A stretch of 52,089 nucleotides of DNA from Holophagaceae bacterium (GTDB lineage: Bacteria > Acidobacteriota > Holophagae > Holophagales > Holophagaceae): the NCBI GenBank assembly GCA_025357545.1, contig JANXPB010000212.1:1-52089 (forward strand). Reading direction: 5' to 3'. Both the position numbers and the translations under genes were made by a program. Under the pieces are notes generated by a model. That model was not told where the DNA came from. It made no database searches and worked only from the letters and a program-made list of their open reading frames with translations. Shown piece after piece: positions 25,378-44,312 of this stretch; within the stretch, counting starts at the first letter, position 1, and each line of letters opens with the position of its first letter.

Positions 25378-25511
25378 GTCCGCTCCTATGCAAAGCAGTA
25401 GCCTACCTGTTGGACGCCGGTTCTCCAATCCCCCGGACCGCGCCCCGAACCGCGCGGGACAAGCGGGGAAGGCCGCGCTATCCTTGAGGGTTTGATATTG
25501 GAGCAACTCTC

Positions 25512-27119
25512 ATGATCCTGAAACCCAACGCCCCCGAAGCCGCCCACGCCGGAAAGACCGTCCATGGCTTCAATTTCATTAATGGCAAGGAGGTCGAGGG
25601 CGTCGGCTCCATTGAATCCCGCTCCGCCGTGGACAGCCGCGACCTGGTCGGCGTCTTCCCCGACAGTGGCGAGCAGGACGTAGCCAATGCCGCCAAGGCC
25701 GCGGCCGACGCCTTCAAGGGCTGGTCCGCCACGCCCGCCCCCATCCGCGGCGCGGTGATCCAGCGCATCGGCCAGGTGCTGGAGGCCCAGAAGGAGAAGC
25801 TAGCGCACATCATCACCCGCGAGATCGGCAAGACCCCACGCGAGGCCATGGGCGAGGTGCAGGAGGCCATCGACACCTGCACCTTCTTCACCTCCGAAGG
25901 CCGCCGCCTCTACGGCCAGACCGTGCCCTCCGAGATGGCCCACAAGGAGCTCTACACCTACCGCCGGCCCATCGGCGTGTGCGGCATCCTGGCCGCCAAC
26001 AATTTCCCCATGGCCGTGCCGTCCTGGAAGATCATCCCGGCTATTCTCTGCGGCAACACCGTGGTGTGGAAGCCCAGCGACGACGCGCCCACCATCGCCT
26101 ATCTCTTCATCAAGGCCATGCAGGATGCAGGCGTCCCGGCGGGCGTGGTGAACACGGTCAACGGCAAGGGCCGCGCGGGCTGCGGCAAGCATTTCCTGGC
26201 GGGCATCGACAAGGGCTACTACCAGAAGTTCAGCTTCACCGGCTCCACCCAGGTGGGCCGCACCATCGGCGAGATGTGCGGGCGCAACCTGATGATCCCG
26301 AGCCTGGAACTGGGCGGCAAGAATCCCATGGTGGTCATGCCCGACTGCGACATGGAGAACGCCGTGCGCGGCGCGCTGTGGGCCGCCTTTGGCACCGCGG
26401 GCCAGCGCTGCACCAGCCTCGCCAACATCATCGTGCACGAGGCCTGCGCCAAGGACTTCAAGCAGGGCTTCATGGACGGCCTGGCCAAGTTGGAGATCGG
26501 CAACCCCGTCACGCACCCGGAAGTGACCTACGGCCCCATGATCAACGCGCGCTTCGCCGCGGGCTTCGAGGAGCACTGGGAAATGGGCGCCAAGGACAAG
26601 GGCGCCAAGTGCCTGAGCGGCGGCGCCCAGTGGACCGAGGCCAATCGCACCGCGCTCGTGAAGGGCGACATCAGCCATGGCCAGTACATGCAGCCCAGCG
26701 TGTGGGACGACGTCACCCCCGACATGTGGCTGTTCCAGACCGAGGTCTTCGGCCCGACAGTGAATATCTCCACCGTGAAGGACTTCGACCAGGCCATGGA
26801 CTACGCCAACGGTACGCCCTACGGCCTGTCCAGCTCGCTCTACACCGAGAACCGCCACTGGGTGGAGCGCTTCAAGCGCGAGATCAAGGCGGGCATGAGC
26901 TCCATCAACAACACCACCTCCGGCGCCGAGGCCCACATGCCCTTCGGCGGCAACGGCTGGAGCGGCAACGGCACCCGCGAAAGCGGCATCTGGGTCATCG
27001 ATTCCTACACCAAGTGGCACGCCGTGAACGACGACGCCAGCGGCAAGCTGCAGCTCGCGCAGATCGAAACCAACTACGGCGGCGCCGCGGCCGTGCCTAC
27101 GGACTGGGCCTCGATCTAA
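25512..27119 (+). CDS. aldehyde dehydrogenase (possibly aminoadipate-semialdehyde type)
   Basis: A 535-residue NAD(P)-dependent ALDH. The catalytic glutamate is in LELGGKNP (E266) and the nucleophile in GTAGQRC (C300), so unlike the enzyme at 8683 it hydrolyses to a free acid. The segment GILAANNFPMAVPSWK forms the cofactor/substrate tunnel. ATG 25512 has GGAG eight bases upstream. Codon choice is strikingly uniform (third-position C/G nearly throughout), a sign of high expression. With the divergent FAD oxidoreductase it could perform the second step of an amine/imino-acid oxidation, as amaB follows amaA for pipecolate in Pseudomonas. The specific substrate is a guess; succinate-semialdehyde is another candidate. 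Confidence 0.83.
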   Translation: MILKPNAPEAAHAGKTVHGFNFINGKEVEGVGSIESRSAVDSRDLVGVFPDSGEQDVANAAKAAADAFKGWSATPAPIRGAVIQRIGQVLEAQKEKLAHIITREIGKTPREAMGEVQEAIDTCTFFTSEGRRLYGQTVPSEMAHKELYTYRRPIGVCGILAANNFPMAVPSWKIIPAILCGNTVVWKPSDDAPTIAYLFIKAMQDAGVPAGVVNTVNGKGRAGCGKHFLAGIDKGYYQKFSFTGSTQVGRTIGEMCGRNLMIPSLELGGKNPMVVMPDCDMENAVRGALWAAFGTAGQRCTSLANIIVHEACAKDFKQGFMDGLAKLEIGNPVTHPEVTYGPMINARFAAGFEEHWEMGAKDKGAKCLSGGAQWTEANRTALVKGDISHGQYMQPSVWDDVTPDMWLFQTEVFGPTVNISTVKDFDQAMDYANGTPYGLSSSLYTENRHWVERFKREIKAGMSSINNTTSGAEAHMPFGGNGWSGNGTRESGIWVIDSYTKWHAVNDDASGKLQLAQIETNYGGAAAVPTDWASI

Positions 27120-31851: not shown

Positions 31852-34137
31852 TCAGTTCTGGAAGAGCAGTGCTGGGCCGCTGTCAGTCTGCCGCAGCCGC
31901 GTTCTCTGCCCCGTTGGGTCGCCCCGCAACCAATCCTTCAACTGGTCGTGGCGGTGGCTTGAACCCAGGTGGCCGCTGACGCCCAATGGCACCACCAAGG
32001 TCGTGCCATCGGGATCGCCCCAGTCCAGGATCAGGCGCATGCTCTGCCCGAAGTCCGGCTGGGTCACGCGCACCGTATGGTTGGCGCCGCCTTGGGCAGC
32101 GTGGGGCGGGTTAAAGAGCCAGCCCAGCAGCCCGCCGGCCCTGCCCACGGGATGCTGCAGGTCGAGCCGGTCCCGCTCGCCCCAGGTCTTGGGGCCGTCC
32201 AGAAGTAGCTTCCGCGCTTGGCGCTGGGTTTCGACCACGGCTTCGGCCTTGTCGCCTAACCCGGCCCGGGACCAGGCTTCCTGATCCACTTTCAGAGCCT
32301 CCCGGAGCAGCGCATCGCTAGTGTCGGAGCTGAAGGTGTCCGCATCCCAGCCGGTGCCCCGGAGAATGCGATTGAACACCAGGGCGCGGAATTGTTGCTT
32401 GAGGAGGTCCGCCTCCAGGAATAAGCGCGAACCCGATGTGGCGGCCCCGTCCCAATTCTGGAAGCGGTCCCGCACCTCCCGTTCCAGCAGTGGGGCGAGG
32501 AGTTTCATGAACTCCTGGTGTTCCAAGGAAACCACGTCCAGCTGGATGCGCTCGGCCCCCGCATGGTCCAGTTTGCCCGCTGCTTCGATGAGTTCGGCGA
32601 TGCGCTTGGCCCGCACGGGGCTCGCCCAGCGGGTGGCCACCGGGTAGGGAAAACCGCTGCCCAGGATGCGTTGGTTGGCGGTGACCAGGTAGCCCTTGGC
32701 TGGATCCAGCACCCGTGGCATCTCCCCCTGGCTCACGAAGCCCTGCCAGTCATTGGCGGGGTCGTTGCCATCCACCGGCAGCGACCCATCATCGCCCTTT
32801 TTACGGATGGGAATGAGCCCCGTCGCGCGGTACCCGATGTGGCCTTCGGCGTCGGTGTAGACGATGTTCTGGGCGGGCCCCAGGAAGCCATCGCAGGCGG
32901 CGTTGAAACTCTCCCAATCCGTGGCCCGCACCATTTTCGTGATAGGCATCCGCAGGTACACCGGGTCCAGTGCGGTCCACTTGAGGCTGTACCCGGGCCG
33001 CACTTGGGGGCCATGGGCACCAAGGGCGACCCGGAACCGCTCCGCGGCGCGGCCCTTCACGGGAATGTCCTCCGTGCGTTCGCCCCTCGGCGCCTCCCGG
33101 TAGAGGTCCTGCACATCCGTTCCCAGATTGGTGAAGCCCCAGGCGATGGCCTGGTTGCGGCCCAGGGTGATGCCCGGCAGGAAGGGCAGCGAAACACCCT
33201 CGGCGAAACGGTCTCCCACCTCGATGCGCAGCGGCAACCAGATGCCGGGACTGGCGAGGCTCAGGTGGGGGTCATTCACCAGGATGGGCTTCCCGCTGGC
33301 GGTGCGGCTGCCCGACACCACCCAAGCGTTGGAACCGACGGCGGCATTCCGTTCCCCGGCCCTGGGCTCCAAGCCCAAGTCGTCCTGGGACGGCCCGGAC
33401 AGCCGGGCGGTCTTCGTTATTGGCACGAGCAGAGGGACGGGCGCTCCGCGGAACAGGAGCTCGGCATCCAGTTTGGGTGGCTCCGCATCGGGAATGAGCA
33501 ACTGATCCCAATCCGTGGCTACGGCCTGGATGGCCCGGTTCTCAGCCTCCGGCAAGGCCCTGAGCGCCTCGTTCCGCAGTTCCGCCTTCCAGGTGCTGGA
33601 CAGGTCCTCGTGCAAGAGCAGCAGGCCCTTGAGGCAGTCCGCCGAGGTCCAGGGACGGGGCTTGGTTCCGAGAAGCTGGAACTCCAGTCCCCAGCGGTCC
33701 GGGTGGCTCTGGATGAAGGCATTCACGCCATCGGCGAAGGCTTCCAGCGCCTCGCGCTCATCCTCCGGCAGCAGGGGCACCGCGGCCTCCGCCACCTGGT
33801 GGAATCCGTAAAGGCGATGGGTGCGGTCCAGGGGCAGCGCTGCAGGGCCGATGAGCTCAGCCAGCAGTCCATCCGCCGCGCGGCGCTGCAGTTCCATCTG
33901 GAAGAGCCGCTCACGCGCCGACAGGTAGCCTTGCACCCGGAAGGCATCGAGAAAGGAGCCCGCGCGGATGGTCGCCACCCCGCGCGCATCGAAGGCCACC
34001 TGCACGCGGCTGGCGAGGCCCGGAATCGCCGGAGCCGCACGGTCCGGTTGTTGGCGGTAGACCAGCCACCAGGCACCCACCGCTGCCAGGGTCAGGAGCG
34101 CCGTGAGGCTCAGGACGATCCGCTTCAACCACCGCAT
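31852..34137 (-). CDS. penicillin acylase family protein (Ntn hydrolase)
   Basis: A 761-residue N-terminal-nucleophile hydrolase precursor. One N-terminal membrane anchor or signal (about 6-27) is followed by the alpha chain with ARERLFQMELQRR, then the autocatalytic site VGSNAWVVSG: S269 becomes the first residue of the beta chain. NDPHLSLASPGIW and the later GFTNLGTDVQDLY are typical of the family. Members cleave amide bonds of beta-lactams, acyl-homoserine lactones or other N-acyl compounds; the natural substrate here is unknown. It is expected in the periplasm. Its stop codon abuts the palindromic element. Confidence 0.9.
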   Translation of the reverse strand: MRWLKRIVLSLTALLTLAAVGAWWLVYRQQPDRAAPAIPGLASRVQVAFDARGVATIRAGSFLDAFRVQGYLSARERLFQMELQRRAADGLLAELIGPAALPLDRTHRLYGFHQVAEAAVPLLPEDEREALEAFADGVNAFIQSHPDRWGLEFQLLGTKPRPWTSADCLKGLLLLHEDLSSTWKAELRNEALRALPEAENRAIQAVATDWDQLLIPDAEPPKLDAELLFRGAPVPLLVPITKTARLSGPSQDDLGLEPRAGERNAAVGSNAWVVSGSRTASGKPILVNDPHLSLASPGIWLPLRIEVGDRFAEGVSLPFLPGITLGRNQAIAWGFTNLGTDVQDLYREAPRGERTEDIPVKGRAAERFRVALGAHGPQVRPGYSLKWTALDPVYLRMPITKMVRATDWESFNAACDGFLGPAQNIVYTDAEGHIGYRATGLIPIRKKGDDGSLPVDGNDPANDWQGFVSQGEMPRVLDPAKGYLVTANQRILGSGFPYPVATRWASPVRAKRIAELIEAAGKLDHAGAERIQLDVVSLEHQEFMKLLAPLLEREVRDRFQNWDGAATSGSRLFLEADLLKQQFRALVFNRILRGTGWDADTFSSDTSDALLREALKVDQEAWSRAGLGDKAEAVVETQRQARKLLLDGPKTWGERDRLDLQHPVGRAGGLLGWLFNPPHAAQGGANHTVRVTQPDFGQSMRLILDWGDPDGTTLVVPLGVSGHLGSSHRHDQLKDWLRGDPTGQRTRLRQTDSGPALLFQN

Positions 34138-34180
34138 GCCCGCTCCGATTCCGCCCGCAATTATTTCCTTTGGTGAAGTT

Positions 34181-34235
34181 TAGGGGGCGTTGCGAAATTT
34201 TCGGCGCTTTTCTGGTTATTTCGCCACGCCCCCTA
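34181..34235. terminator. 18-bp inverted repeat between the acylase and tesA remnants
   Basis: Arms 34181-34198 and 34218-34235 match at 17 of 18 positions (tagggggcg...cgaaat against its complement), with a 19-base spacer. It lies upstream of the acylase start and downstream of the tesA-like remnant, both on the minus strand. It could be an old terminator of tesA or an operator; there is no clear T-run. Confidence 0.5.
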
Positions 34236-34285
34236 GGTCGGACCACCCCCGCGCGCACCAGCTTTTACGCAACGGCTAATCCCTA

Positions 34286-34906
34286 TCAATGCGCACGGGT
34301 GAGCATCGGCCCCAACTTCTCCCAAAGGTGCTCCGCCACTTTGCGGGCGCCCTTTGAGTTGGGGTGGATGCCGTCCGCCTGGTTCAATCCCAGTTCCATG
34401 GCCACCCCTTCGAGCAGGAAGAGCACCAGCGGTACATGGAATTCCGCCGCCAGGCGCGGGTAGATGGCCGCAAAGCGGGCTTGGGCCTGGGCCCCGAAGT
34501 TGTCCGGCAGGCGCAGACCCGTCACCAGCACCTTGGAGCCTTCCTTCCGGGCCCGGCGCAAAATCGCACGCAAATTCTGCTCGGTCTGTTCCGTGGGAAC
34601 CCCGCGCAAGCCGTCATTGGCCCCCAAGGGCCACCACCAGCACCGCCACCCTTTGCTTGTAGCTGCAGTCGAGGCGGGCCAAGCCGCCCGCGGTGGTGTC
34701 GCCGGAAATGCCCGCGTTCACCACCTTCCAGAATCTGCGCTCCTGCTTGATCCGCGCCTCGATGAAAGGACTATTCCAACGGCAAGCCCAGACCCGCCGT
34801 CAGACTGTCTCCCAGGAAGACGACGGTGCGGCGGACCTCGGTGGGGATGGCGGCGCGGATCCCGCAACTGAAATAGACAAAGGGCAGGAATCATCCAACG
34901 GCGCAT
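34286..34906 (-). pseudogene. tesA: broken tesA-like SGNH lysophospholipase/arylesterase
   Basis: Pieces of one TesA-like gene lie in different minus-strand frames. Start: MRRWMIPALCLF (34906), which must shift near 34865-34875 to reach SCGIRAAIPTEVRRTVVFLGDSLTAGLG (block I, catalytic Ser). That frame ends at an in-frame TAG (34771-34773). A third frame gives VVNAGISGDTTAGG, then a one-base excess in a C-run (34621-34625) is needed to enter GANDGLRG and finally DGIHPNSKGA (catalytic Asp-His). At least three shifts and one stop make it a pseudogene. A restored reading would have a lipobox-like cysteine. In E. coli tesA is divergent from ybbA-ybbP, exactly as here. Confidence 0.88.
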
Positions 34907-34920
34907 GCCAAAAGAATCTC

Positions 34921-35640
34921 ATGGCTGCTGTCCAGGATTCAGGGAACGCCTTCCGGTACCTTTGGAGCGTGATCGAACTGCGCGATGTCTCCCAGATCTT
35001 CGACTCCCCCTCAGGTGAATCCCGGGCGGTGCTGGAAAACCTGTCCTGCGCTTTCGAGGCGGGGCTCTCCATTGCCATCGAAGGGCCTTCCGACAGCGGC
35101 AAGAGCACCCTGTTCGGCCTCTCGGCGGGCCCGGACCAGCCCACGTCAGGCGAGGTGATCGTCGCGGGCCACGTTCTCGGAAAACTGAATTAGGCAGGAC
35201 TTTGGCGCTTCCGGGCCCAGAACCTGGGCTTCGTGTTCCAGGCCTTCCACCTGCTCCAGCATTTCTCAGCCCTGCAAAACGTCGTCATCGCTGCCGAGAT
35301 CGCAGGTCTTGAAGCCCCTGTGAAAGCGGCGCAGGAGGCCCTGGCGCGGGTGGGCCTGGAGCCCCGCACCGCGCACCTGCCGGGCCAGATCAGCGGTGGA
35401 GAGTGCCAGCGCGTGGCCAGCGCCCGGGCCATCGTCACACGCCCGAAGATCCTGCTCTGCGACGAACCCACCGGCAGCCTGGACCGGGTGAATGCCGCGA
35501 AGGTTTTCGAGCTGCTGCTCGAATTGCATCACGACCTGGGCACCACCCTGGTGCTGGTGACCCACGATCCCCACCTGGCCAACCGCCACGACCGCCAGGT
35601 CTTCCTTGAGGGCGGCCGCATCGTGAACGGCGCCGCATGA
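34921..35640 (+). pseudogene. ybbA: ybbA/lolD-like ABC transporter ATPase with in-frame stop
   Basis: An ATPase of about 230 codons read in a single frame but interrupted by TAG at 35191-35193. Upstream are VIELRDVSQIF and the Walker A region GPSDSGKST, where the usual third glycine (GPSGSGKST) is aspartate. Downstream are NLGFVFQAFHLL (Q-loop), ISGGECQRVASARAI (signature), ILLCDEPTGSLD (Walker B) and LVLVTHDPH. Both the nonsense codon and the Walker A change suggest lost function. The start is ATG 34921 or GTG 34969. The 3' end overlaps the permease start by four bases (ATGA), so the original operon structure survives. Confidence 0.88.
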
Positions 35641-38100
35641 CGCAAGGATTCCTCCTGCGCATGGTGGGCCGGGAGCTTGGGCGCCAGAAAGGGCGGCTGG
35701 TGCTCATCGCCCTCTGCCTTTCCTTGGGCTTCGCCGCCTTCGCCGCCACCTAGGGATTTTCCGCGAGGGTGCTGGGGGCCATCCATTCCGAAAGCCGCGC
35801 CATCCCGGGCGGCGACGCGGCCCTGAATGCCACGGGACTGCTGCCCGAAGGCCTGGAAGCGAAGGTGCGCGCGGCGGGTCCGGGCTATCCCTTGGCCGAG
35901 GCTCTGGATATCGTCGGCGACCAGGCCCTTGACCACGGCGTGTTCGTGGAAGCCGTCCTCGCGCAGGCTTTCAATCTCAATCAACCCATAGCCCCCCACG
36001 GCGGGAATCCCGCCGACCACTTCCCCCTCGACCTTGAAAATCGGAAGCGGCGAAGTACCGGTCAGGGGCATTGTGGCCAAGGATGAAGCCCGCCAAGCTT
36101 CCGCCTTCACGCTGGGCCCCAGGGCGCACATGGAACTGACCACCGCGCGTACCTTATGGCCTGCTCACCCAGCGTTCGCGCATGATGGGTCGCCTGCTGA
36201 TGACCTTGAAGCCCGGTGTCCAGATCGGAAGCCTCATGCCGAAACTGCAGGCCTTGGCCGGGAGCGCGGGACCGGCAGTGCGAGCTCAAAGCCACGAGGA
36301 AGCCAGTGGCGCCCTGGCCCGCCCCATCCGCAATCTCAACCGCTGCATCCAGCAGTTGGGCCTCTTCACCCTGCTGTTGGCGCTGCTCGGTGCCTGGGCC
36401 ATTCTGGCGGCCGTCCTGGACGGGCGCCGGCGAGATGCGGCCATCTTGCGCTGCCTCGGCGCGCCACCAACTGCGCCGGTGTTGATCTTCGGCGGCCTCA
36501 CCCTGATTCTCCTGCTGACGGCCCTGGTCCTCGGATTTGCTTTTGGTACCGCAGCTTCCTCCTTCACTCCACGTTGGCTGGGGGACATCATCCCCATCGC
36601 GGCGCAGAACGCGCCGGCCCGCTGGCCGCCAGTTATGGAGACCCTGGCGGCGCTGGTGATGGTGCTGCTTCCCTCCCCGCCGCCCCTGCTTCGCCTGGGG
36701 AAGGTAAGGCCTCTGGAGCTGCATCGGGAATCCACCATTAGCCATGGTGACCGTTTGCTGGCTTGGTTCTGCAGCAGCGCCGCCCTTGGGGTCGCGGCCT
36801 GGCTGGTGCTGCGCATTGCGCCCAGCTGGAAGGTCGGGTTCGTCACCCTGGCGGCCCTGGCGCTGCTTTTCGCCCTGTTCATGGGGGCTACGCGACTGCT
36901 GCTCTGGCTCTATGGCCGCTTCGCGGTGCGCATGCCCCTCCCCCTGAAGCTCAGCTTCGCGCAGCTGGGCGCCAGACCAGGCCTCACGTCGCTCATGATG
37001 GCGGTGATGGGCCTGGCCATCTTTCTGATCCTCGCTACCTCCTTCATCAAGGACGATCTGGTGGGTCCGATCCTGAAACTGCGCGGCGCGGACAACCGGC
37101 CCAATTTGTTTTTCATCGACGCACAACCCGACCAGAGCGGCGCCCTCCAGTCGCAACTCAAAGGCCTTTCCGGGCGCAATCCCTTGGTGGCGCCCCTGGT
37201 ACGGGCCCGCCTCAAGGCCATCAATGGCCAGACCGTCCATGAAGCCCCGGTGGCGGAGGGCAACGAGGACCAGGCGCGCCGTGACGGCTTCCGCACCCGG
37301 GAGCAGAACCTGACTTATCGTGCGGTTCTGGAAGAAGGCGAGACCCTGGCGGCCGGGCGCTTGGGGGAGGACCCGCAATCGCCCCACGCGGAGATCTCCC
37401 TGGAGGAATCCTTAGCACAAAGCATCCAGGCCAAGCTCGGCGATGAGCTCAGCTTCGACGTGCAAGGTCAGGAGGTAAGCGGCAAGGTCACCTCCCTGCG
37501 CAAGGCCGTGTGGCAGACCTTGCGACCGAATTTTTTCATCGTGCTGCACCCCTCGATGCTGGTAGGCGCGCCGCGCTTGGATCTGGTGGCCCTCGAAGCC
37601 AAGGATGAAGCCACACGCGCACGCTCCAGACGGAAGTGTCCCGGGCCTTTCCCAACATCACGGTCATCGACATCACTGAGGTCGCCCGGAAGGTGGGGCG
37701 CATCCTGGACCTGATCTCGACCGTCGGCCGGGCCCTGGCGATGCTCATGCTGGCCTCCAGCCTGCTGGTGCTAGCCGCGAGTCTGCTGGCCGGCCGCTTG
37801 GGCCGCCAGCGGGACCTGGCCCTGTTGCGCACCCTTGGCGCTCCGTATAAAACGTTGTTGGGAAGCCTGCTCTGGGAGTTGGTGCTGCTGGGAGCCACCG
37901 CCGCCCTCATCTCGGGCGTCCTGGCGCGGGTCCTTTCGGATCTTAATGCCAAGAAAATTCTGGAACTGCCCACCACGGCGAATCCCTGGGCTGCTCCTCT
38001 ACTGCTGCTGGCCGCGGCGCTGCTCACCGCCCTGGTGGGCCTGCTGGGGTCGTGGAGGGCCTTGAACGCCAAGCCTTTGGAGGTGCTCCGGTCAGAGTGA
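35637..38100 (+). pseudogene. ybbP: ybbP-like FtsX-family ABC permease, stop and frameshifts
   Basis: An intact version would have about 820 codons, like E. coli YbbP. The sequence starts at ATG 35637 (MTQGFLLRMVGRELGRQKG), hits TAG at 35751-35753 in the first membrane helix, continues in the same frame to about 36030, shifts frame there, again near 36155, reads a long section (36160-37615) with several membrane helices, and shifts once more near 37620 to end GSWRALNAKPLEVLRSE. Membrane segments and the FtsX-type ends (DLALLRTLGAP) are recognisable throughout. With one stop and three shifts it cannot make a full product. It would have paired with the broken ATPase upstream. Confidence 0.9.
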
Positions 38101-38160
38101 TCGAAGCGCCCTTTCCCGCTGCCTGCACCCGCTCCCGGGCCCCTGCTAACATGGAATTCC

Positions 38161-38205
38161 GCCCGGTGTGGCACCACTCCTGAATGCTGGGGTGCCGCAC
38201 CGGGC
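38161..38205. promoter_or_regulatory. hairpin upstream of the ferredoxin gene
   Basis: Arms 38161-38175 and 38191-38205 (gcccggtgtggcacc against its complement) pair at 14 of 15 positions around a 15-base loop, ending 20 bp before the ferredoxin ATG. No T-run follows, so it may be a 5'-UTR structure rather than a terminator of the ybbP remnant. Confidence 0.45.
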
Positions 38206-38225
38206 GCCTTCCTAGCGAGCCATCC

Positions 38226-38534
38226 ATGTTCACGGTTTCATTCAAGGGCAAGTCCACGGGCGAGGTGCAGTTGGAGCGGGAACTCAGCCTGCTCGCCATC
38301 GCCACCAAGGCCGAAGTGGACCTTCACCACCGCTGCGGCGGCCACGCCCGCTGCGGCACCTGCCTTATCACCATCGACAGCGGCCTGGATAAACTCAGCG
38401 AGCCCCTCTCCGCCGAGCGGCGCATCCTCACCATCCTCAAGGCCCAGCCCAACCAGCGTCTGGCCTGCCAAGCCTGGGCCCAGGGCGACGTCTGTTGCGT
38501 GGTGGGGGATGAAGGGAAGGACCTACGGAAATAG
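38226..38534 (+). CDS. 2Fe-2S ferredoxin, adrenodoxin-like
   Basis: A 102-residue soluble electron carrier. The four cluster ligands are C37, C43, C46 and C81, spaced C-x5-C-x2-C-x34-C as in adrenodoxin/Isc-type rather than plant-type ferredoxins; extra cysteines C90-C91 lie near the end. I start it at ATG 38226 (MFTVSFKGKS), since the frame upstream runs through the hairpin. It is monocistronic. Its redox partner is not evident in the window. Confidence 0.88.
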   Translation: MFTVSFKGKSTGEVQLERELSLLAIATKAEVDLHHRCGGHARCGTCLITIDSGLDKLSEPLSAERRILTILKAQPNQRLACQAWAQGDVCCVVGDEGKDLRK

Positions 38535-38662
38535 GCCTGGGTCCTGAGGCCTGGGTCCTGAGGGAATTTAGTAGCGGCGCTGAGCACCGCGCCATCAACT
38601 CAAGTCATTGCGGCCAAAGGCCGCAGCGATATTGAACCTCAGGACTCGAGACCCAGGCCCCA
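38534..38662. repeat. inverted-repeat element, CTGGGTCCTGAG family, copy 1
   Basis: The left end holds a perfect 14-bp tandem duplication (ggcctgggtcctga at 38534-38547 and 38548-38561). The right end (38638-38662) is an inverted, slightly diverged copy (cctcaggactcgagacccag). A small hairpin (gcggcc-aaa-ggccgc, 38610-38624) is inside. It fills the space between the stops of two convergent genes. Confidence 0.7.
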
Positions 38663-38665
38663 GGG

Positions 38666-39394
38666 CTAATCCAGCAGGAACCCCACGCCTTGCCACACCC
38701 GCACGCGGGTTCTGCCCTCGCCGATGGTGGCGGCTTCGAAGACCAGGCGCTTGGCGGCCTCCACGCAGGCATCATTGGCTTTGTCCACCCACTCGCCTGT
38801 ACCCGGCAGGCCCTGAAGCAGTTTGGTAGCCAGAACTTCGCCGCTCTCGCCCACCAGCACGTTCACCACCACCACACCCTTATCTACCTTTTTCGCCTTG
38901 GGGCGCACCTGGCTGAGGTTGATGGGCTTCGCGGGAACCACATCCGGTGTGATTGGCAGCAGCGTGCCCTCGCCATGCTTGCCCGCCAGCTTTTCGTTGG
39001 CGGCCGAGAGGTCGGCCTTCAACCTGGCATTTTCATCCTGGACCGCCTTGGTGGCCGCCCTGGCTTTCTGGAGGTCGGCCAGGATGCTGTCGCCACTCTG
39101 CTGGTTCTCCTTGAGGCTGCCATGGATCTGATCCAGCTCCTTGTGCATGGAAGCGGCCTCCTCTTTGGCCAAATCCCGGCTCTTTTGCGCCGCCGCCAAG
39201 TCCTCCTGCAGGACCAGGGCAGCCTGGAGCTTGGCGGCGAGATCGTCGCGCTCGGAGCTTAGCCGCTTCACCTGGGCCTGGAGGTTCACCAAGGCCTGGG
39301 AGGTGTGGGTCGCCTTGGCTTTGGATTTGGGAGGGACGGCGGAGAGGGGCAACACGAGAGCCGTCAATGCGAAGCAGGTGGTGGCGATACGCAT
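38666..39394 (-). CDS. exported coiled-coil protein with TonB-like C-terminal domain
   Basis: A 242-residue protein. The signal peptide is MRIATTCFALTALVLPLSAVP. Residues about 30-135 are a continuous heptad-rich coiled coil (lysine/glutamate/alanine, e.g. LVNLQAQVKRLSSERDDLAAKL). The last 75 residues, VVVVNVLVGESGEVLATKLLQGLPG onward, resemble the TonB C-terminal (energy-transducer) fold. It lacks TonB's membrane anchor and proline-rich spacer, so it is a periplasmic relative rather than TonB itself. ATG 39394 has GGAGG four bases upstream. Function unknown. Confidence 0.72.
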   Translation of the reverse strand: MRIATTCFALTALVLPLSAVPPKSKAKATHTSQALVNLQAQVKRLSSERDDLAAKLQAALVLQEDLAAAQKSRDLAKEEAASMHKELDQIHGSLKENQQSGDSILADLQKARAATKAVQDENARLKADLSAANEKLAGKHGEGTLLPITPDVVPAKPINLSQVRPKAKKVDKGVVVVNVLVGESGEVLATKLLQGLPGTGEWVDKANDACVEAAKRLVFEAATIGEGRTRVRVWQGVGFLLD

Positions 39395-43560: not shown

Positions 43561-44312
43561 CGCGCACCCCCCGCCGCCAATTGAAAGAAGACTTCATCCA
43601 GCGTGCGCACCGAATAGCGCCCGAGTATCTCTCGGGGCGGTGCATCGCCGTAGAGCTCGCCGTCGAAGATGATCCCCACCCGGTCGCAGATCTCGTCCAC
43701 CAGCGGCATGACGTGGGTGCTGACAATGACCGTTCGGCCCTCGCTCTTCATGACCCGGAGCAAGTCCAGCACAGTTTTGGCCGTGAGCACGTCCAGCCCT
43801 GTGGTGGGTTCGTCGAAGATCACCACCTTGGGGTCGTGGAGGAGGGCGCGGGCGATGGAGACCTTCTGCTTCTGGCCCGAGGAGAGGCCGTCCATCTTCA
43901 CATCCGAGAAATCAGCGAGCTGCAGCTTTTCCAGCAGGTAGATGCCGCGCCGCTCAGCGATGGTGGGATCGACGCCCTGAAACTCCCCGAAGAGCCGCAG
44001 CAGTTCCCGGGGAGTGAAGCGTTCGTACACATTCATGTCAGTGGAGAGGAAGCCCAGTTTCCCGCGGACCTTTTCGCCTTCCTTCTGGGTGTCCAGGCCG
44101 CAGACCTCGATGTGGCCCTGGTCCGGCTGCATGAGCGTGGCGATCATGCGCAGCGTGGTGGACTTCCCGGCGCCATTGGGGCCCAGCAACCCGTAGATTT
44201 CCCCGGGCTGGACCGTGAAGGAGATCCCGCGCACGGCCTCGATGCGCTTCTTCGATTTGGTCTTCCGGTCTTTCACCGTGAAGGCTTTGTGCAGATTCGT
44301 CACCTGGATCAC
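43557..44312 (-). CDS. ABC transporter ATPase, NatA-like
   Basis: A 251-residue ABC ATPase. Walker A is GPNGAGKST, the signature is LSSGQKQKVSIARAL, Walker B is VVIFDEPTTGLD and the switch histidine is in STHVMPLVDEI. It has an insertion of basic residues (KDRKTKSKKR) near residue 20. The start is GTG 44312 with AGGAG five bases upstream. It drives the permease encoded immediately downstream. By similarity to NatAB it may export sodium or a small molecule. Confidence 0.9.
   Translation of the reverse strand: MIQVTNLHKAFTVKDRKTKSKKRIEAVRGISFTVQPGEIYGLLGPNGAGKSTTLRMIATLMQPDQGHIEVCGLDTQKEGEKVRGKLGFLSTDMNVYERFTPRELLRLFGEFQGVDPTIAERRGIYLLEKLQLADFSDVKMDGLSSGQKQKVSIARALLHDPKVVIFDEPTTGLDVLTAKTVLDLLRVMKSEGRTVIVSTHVMPLVDEICDRVGIIFDGELYGDAPPREILGRYSVRTLDEVFFQLAAGGAR

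Follow-up and report, generated by a model that had tools for sequence, protein, structure and literature searches.

A contig of a Holophagaceae bacterium (assembly GCA_025357545.1, contig JANXPB010000212.1; the 52,089 nucleotides analysed are called the window here) carries a tesA gene on the minus strand that diverges from a ybbA-ybbP pair on the plus strand (34286-38100), and an initial annotation made from the letters alone had read all three genes as disabled. The question that this locus raises is whether an entire module has genuinely decayed together, and if so, what its loss says about its function. Our reading, to which we assign a probability of roughly 0.88, is that the unit was recently and jointly pseudogenised, and that it is an orthologue of E. 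coli YbbAP-TesA. This is ordinary gene loss, caught in progress. The source genome (G000) is a draft of 3.27 Mb in 239 contigs, 95.6% complete, of which the window is contig C126, and four congeners (G001 to G004) were compared with it. In the literature we found no report on decayed ybbP or tesA.

Disabling lesions in tesA, ybbA and ybbP

Lesions were read from the draft contig consensus and called by codon-level alignment with the intact copies of two genomes of the same genus, G001 and G003. This alignment revealed disabling lesions in all three genes, as had been claimed, and confirmed nearly every lesion listed in the initial annotation. In G001 (JANXXC010000068.1) tesA, ybbA and ybbP are all complete at the same place, and in G003 (JANYJQ010000154.1 and contig C20) tesA and ybbA are complete while ybbP is open on either side of a contig break. 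These intact loci share with the window the gene order, the flanking acylase and ferredoxin genes and the ATGA overlap between ybbA and ybbP, but unlike the window they have open reading frames. A further difference in G001 is an additional SDR-family reductase gene (L009:3089-3898) that separates ybbP from the ferredoxin gene; E. coli likewise has an SDR gene (ybbO) with tesA.

The tesA pseudogene (34286-34908, minus strand), encoding an SGNH hydrolase, was delimited by tblastn with intact G001 and G003 TesA, by alignment and by matches to NF007819 and Lipase_GDSL_2. Its tblastn matches are split over three frames (34765-34857, 34623-34766 and 34286-34627), and alignment with the two intact relatives identified an in-frame TAG (34771-34773, minus strand), an 8-nt loss adjoining it and two further frame changes, in agreement with the at least three shifts and one TAG described initially. 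The start region lies in a different frame from the GDSL block, and the GDSL, GAND and DGIHPN blocks are legible, but spread over three different frames. The ybbA pseudogene (34969-35640, plus strand), encoding an ABC ATPase with 84% identity to intact G003 YbbA, keeps a single frame throughout with no frameshift. Both changes previously attributed to it are present: one internal in-frame TAG (35191-35193, plus strand, by alignment with the intact relatives) and a G-to-D replacement in the Walker A motif (35092-35094, plus strand), which reads GPSDSGKST in the window and GPSGSGKST in both intact relatives. The replaced glycine is invariant in seven other family genomes, and the intact Walker A motif and open reading frames that mark a working YbbAP-TesA are lacking in the window copy.

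The ybbP pseudogene (35637-38100, plus strand), encoding a permease with two FtsX domains (36359-36694 and 37735-38076), was recognised by these domains, by its match to NF041854 and by tblastn matches in three frames. Alignment placed an in-frame TAG at codon 39 (35751-35753), and frame switches between tblastn segments located two frame changes at 35980-36160 (near 36.0 kb and 36.16 kb) and a third at 37600-37630 (near 37624), all on the plus strand, so that the TAG and three shifts reported earlier stand; a 93-nt (31-codon) in-frame loss relative to G001 and G003 (35860-35870, near 35865, plus strand) had been missed. Both FtsX domains and a 510-aa YbbP piece persist in long open frames, and selection on the module appears only partly relaxed, observations that would be expected if the fragments were still functional, for example as split permease pieces or through stop read-through. 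We regard this as extremely improbable, as YbbA has a stop and lacks the invariant Walker A glycine, the start and the GDSL block of TesA are in different frames, as are its catalytic blocks, and the neighbouring genes are in ordinary frames without internal stops.

Genuine decay and sequence error

Elsewhere in the window, from 22.3 to 52.1 kb, approximately 20 genes with orthologues each match these along a single frame with no break. The lesions are therefore concentrated in the module, and general sequencing error is unlikely, as the initial annotation had argued from the integrity of the flanking genes. Both flanks are indeed intact by their domain and orthologue matches: a penicillin-amidase-family acylase gene (31852-34137, minus strand; PF01804, E=1.3e-161; orthologues 77-81%), whose named near relatives are Holophagaceae MAGs, and a 2Fe-2S ferredoxin-like gene (38184-38534, plus strand; PF00111; orthologues 83-90%). 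A more local artefact, in which the organism has intact genes and the draft consensus at this place is erroneous or chimeric, would be in keeping with a genome in 239 contigs and with the switch of nearest relative between module and flanks described below, which a chimeric contig could also produce. We consider it very unlikely, given the unbroken genes on the same contig, and given that three separate nonsense codons, losses of 8 and 93 nt and a Walker A missense change do not look like simple indel errors. Real relaxed evolution is also indicated by the codon position 1 and 2 excess (see below), and the case against error is, taken together, strong if indirect. In its own genome (G000), a search for a second copy of the module found no other TesA and no other full-length YbbP, the other FtsX proteins being distant from YbbP, and this is consistent with decay of the whole unit.

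Relationship to E. coli YbbAP-TesA

In E. coli, YbbA, YbbP and TesA form a complex of a type VII ABC transporter and a hydrolase (PMC12646458, PLoS Biol 2025). The physical complex, extraction of membrane lipids and esterase activity have been reported, and it has been proposed that YbbAP, driven by ATP, pulls hydrophobic compounds or lipids out of the inner membrane so that TesA can hydrolyse them (PMC12646458). The function of the module, which had been annotated as unknown, is thus already described in this organism. Intact G001 YbbP aligns to residues 14-788 of 9ge6_A (E=5.3e-54), and nothing in the PDB matches its sequence other than E. coli YbbP (9ge6-9ge8); G003 TesA matches E. coli TesA, among others the chain from the YbbAP-TesA structure (9ge8_T, E=3.9e-38). 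Since E. coli YbbP is the only PDB match of YbbP, the genes of the window are, on sequence grounds, true relatives and orthologues of the E. coli complex. The E. coli chains are similar over their full length to YbbP and TesA of the intact congeners, the permease has the length (approximately 800-860 aa), the two FtsX domains and the full-length match of a YbbP-type protein, and the GDSL and DGIHPN blocks of a Ser-Asp-His SGNH hydrolase of TesA type are present in the intact relatives and legible in the window. The three homologous genes also have the same divergent layout in E. coli, with tesA facing ybbA-ybbP. They differ in that all three are broken in the window, and in that tesA there adjoins the acylase gene, not ybbO. 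The intact relatives' YbbP scores 260 bits against a curated NCBIfam cut-off of 999 bits, as expected for a distant phylum. By analogy with the E. coli structures and assays, the machine would have a role in lipid extraction and hydrolysis in the Holophagaceae also.

Presence and absence of the module in the family

The divergent arrangement of tesA and ybbA-ybbP occurs in the window, G001, G003 and seven more family genomes. In a survey of 60 relatives TesA and YbbP were both found in 19 and neither in 41, with never one alone (four further genomes had only weak SGNH matches). Among 77 family genomes both were present in 24, with YbbP alone in one genome that is 77% complete and TesA alone in another that is 58% complete. 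Several single-contig family genomes have neither protein, and about two thirds of the family are without the pair. In the congener G004 the ferredoxin and acylase genes are approximately 100 bp apart and keep their own upstream sequences, with no trace of the module between them. Internal stops and frame changes are found only in the window copy among the family copies, other split copies lying at contig ends. Copies caught in a broken state are thus rare next to complete absences, as would be expected if decayed copies are deleted soon.

These data support the earlier proposal that the whole unit decayed jointly and recently, through the intact orthologues, the clean absence in G004, the relaxed codon-position ratios and the failure to find a second copy. 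We infer the order of the lesions and the reason for dispensability as follows. This lineage probably came to do without the complex; failure of one subunit would have left the remaining two without purpose, so that they decayed in turn; and the usual end state is complete absence, as in G004. That the function became dispensable is better supported than the window by itself could show, given how much of the family is without the unit. E. coli deletion gives no distinctive phenotype (PMC12646458), and dispensability in laboratory conditions is therefore already known; the present survey shows that most of a family can do without the machine. One genus offers a natural series in which this recently characterised machine is intact, decaying or absent. 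Its parts are kept, broken and lost together, which argues independently, on evolutionary grounds, that YbbA, YbbP and TesA function only as a single machine, and this pattern of joint retention and loss complements the 2025 structural work.

Age of the decay

Of the window-specific substitutions in the module, a fraction of 0.475 lies at codon positions 1 and 2 (bootstrap CI 0.419-0.529). The corresponding fraction is 0.389 for a set of ten control genes from the window (Fisher p 0.010) and 0.31 for the branch of the intact G003 module (p=8.5e-5), the neutral expectation being about 0.667. The excess is moderate, with individual control genes ranging widely (0.15-0.46), and it was seen with the ten-gene set but was absent in an earlier comparison with the four nearest genes alone as controls. 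An excess of changes at family-invariant residues was not significant (53/424 versus 38/431, p=0.10). Full neutrality of the remnants is ruled out, as 0.475 is well below 0.667. These values support evolution of the module that is relaxed, not neutral, and hence a recent decay. A simple mixture of position 1 and 2 fractions, assuming equal rates at the three positions, gives a rough estimate that perhaps 30-45% of the branch substitutions (approximately 20-30% of the branch length) postdate the end of selection, a figure that is soft because control genes vary widely and the four-gene comparison gave no excess. Recency had previously been argued from the ATGA overlap; the overlap is present, and the substitutions favour recency, but as dating evidence it fails, because both intact relatives have the same overlap and it says little on age.

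Possible exchange of the module before decay

At third codon positions the distance of the window's module is 0.384 to G003 and 0.455 to G001, G003 being the nearer, and in both adjacent flanks the reverse holds, with the window nearer G001 than G003; the 99% intervals of the distance difference for module and flanks lie on opposite sides of zero. In the module tree the window groups with G003, alternatives being rejected (AU p 6e-5). The rooted flank tree was unresolved, as it did not reject a grouping of the window and (G003,G004) that leaves G001 outside (AU p 0.18), and the reversal is accordingly one of silent distances, not of rooted topology. These patterns suggest that the module may have been exchanged before it decayed. 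A variant compatible with joint pseudogenisation is that, once the lineages had split, recombination brought in the module from a G003-like congener and it then decayed in the recipient, in place of decay after strictly vertical descent; we give this somewhat less than an even chance. The distances are most simply explained in this way, because G001-G003 distances change little, and both the third-position reversal and the module tree are in its favour. Against it, the flank tree does not resolve, so that unequal rates, or a replacement in the G001 lineage, could play a part; the G001 locus has its extra SDR gene; and the nearest relative also varies in other regions of the window. Our main reading, joint and recent pseudogenisation, can be extended tentatively to a picture in which tesA and ybbA-ybbP form an all-or-none cassette in this family, one that lineages repeatedly lose and exchange with each other at a constant site; in the window it would have come from a G003-like relative and decayed as a whole, with G004 as the emptied end state; we would sooner bet against this wider picture than for it.

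Other features of the window

The gene at 25500-27116 encodes a protein 93% identical to that of G003 and only 71% identical to the best G001 match, reflecting either a variable nearest relative or a G001 paralogue. The acylase gene shares its strand with tesA and also lies beside tesA in two other genera, those of G008 and G014, which suggests that the association of the two genes is old. Between tesA and the acylase gene is a palindromic repeat with the conserved core ACCAGAAAAGC (34177-34244, minus strand reading), scattered copies of which occur in G000, G002, G003 and G004; the window thus has it at one module junction, and in G003 a copy lies at the opposite one, between ybbP and the ferredoxin gene. 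Upstream of the ferredoxin gene, positions 38160-38215 form a strong G+C-rich predicted hairpin (MFE z -2.9), a possible leader or terminator; an inverted repeat resembling it occurs in G001 and G003 and, in part, in G004. A tRNA was the sole match in an Rfam scan of the window. Short interspersed repeats are present at 38527-38670 and 44139-44213, with many partial copies in the genomes of the genus.
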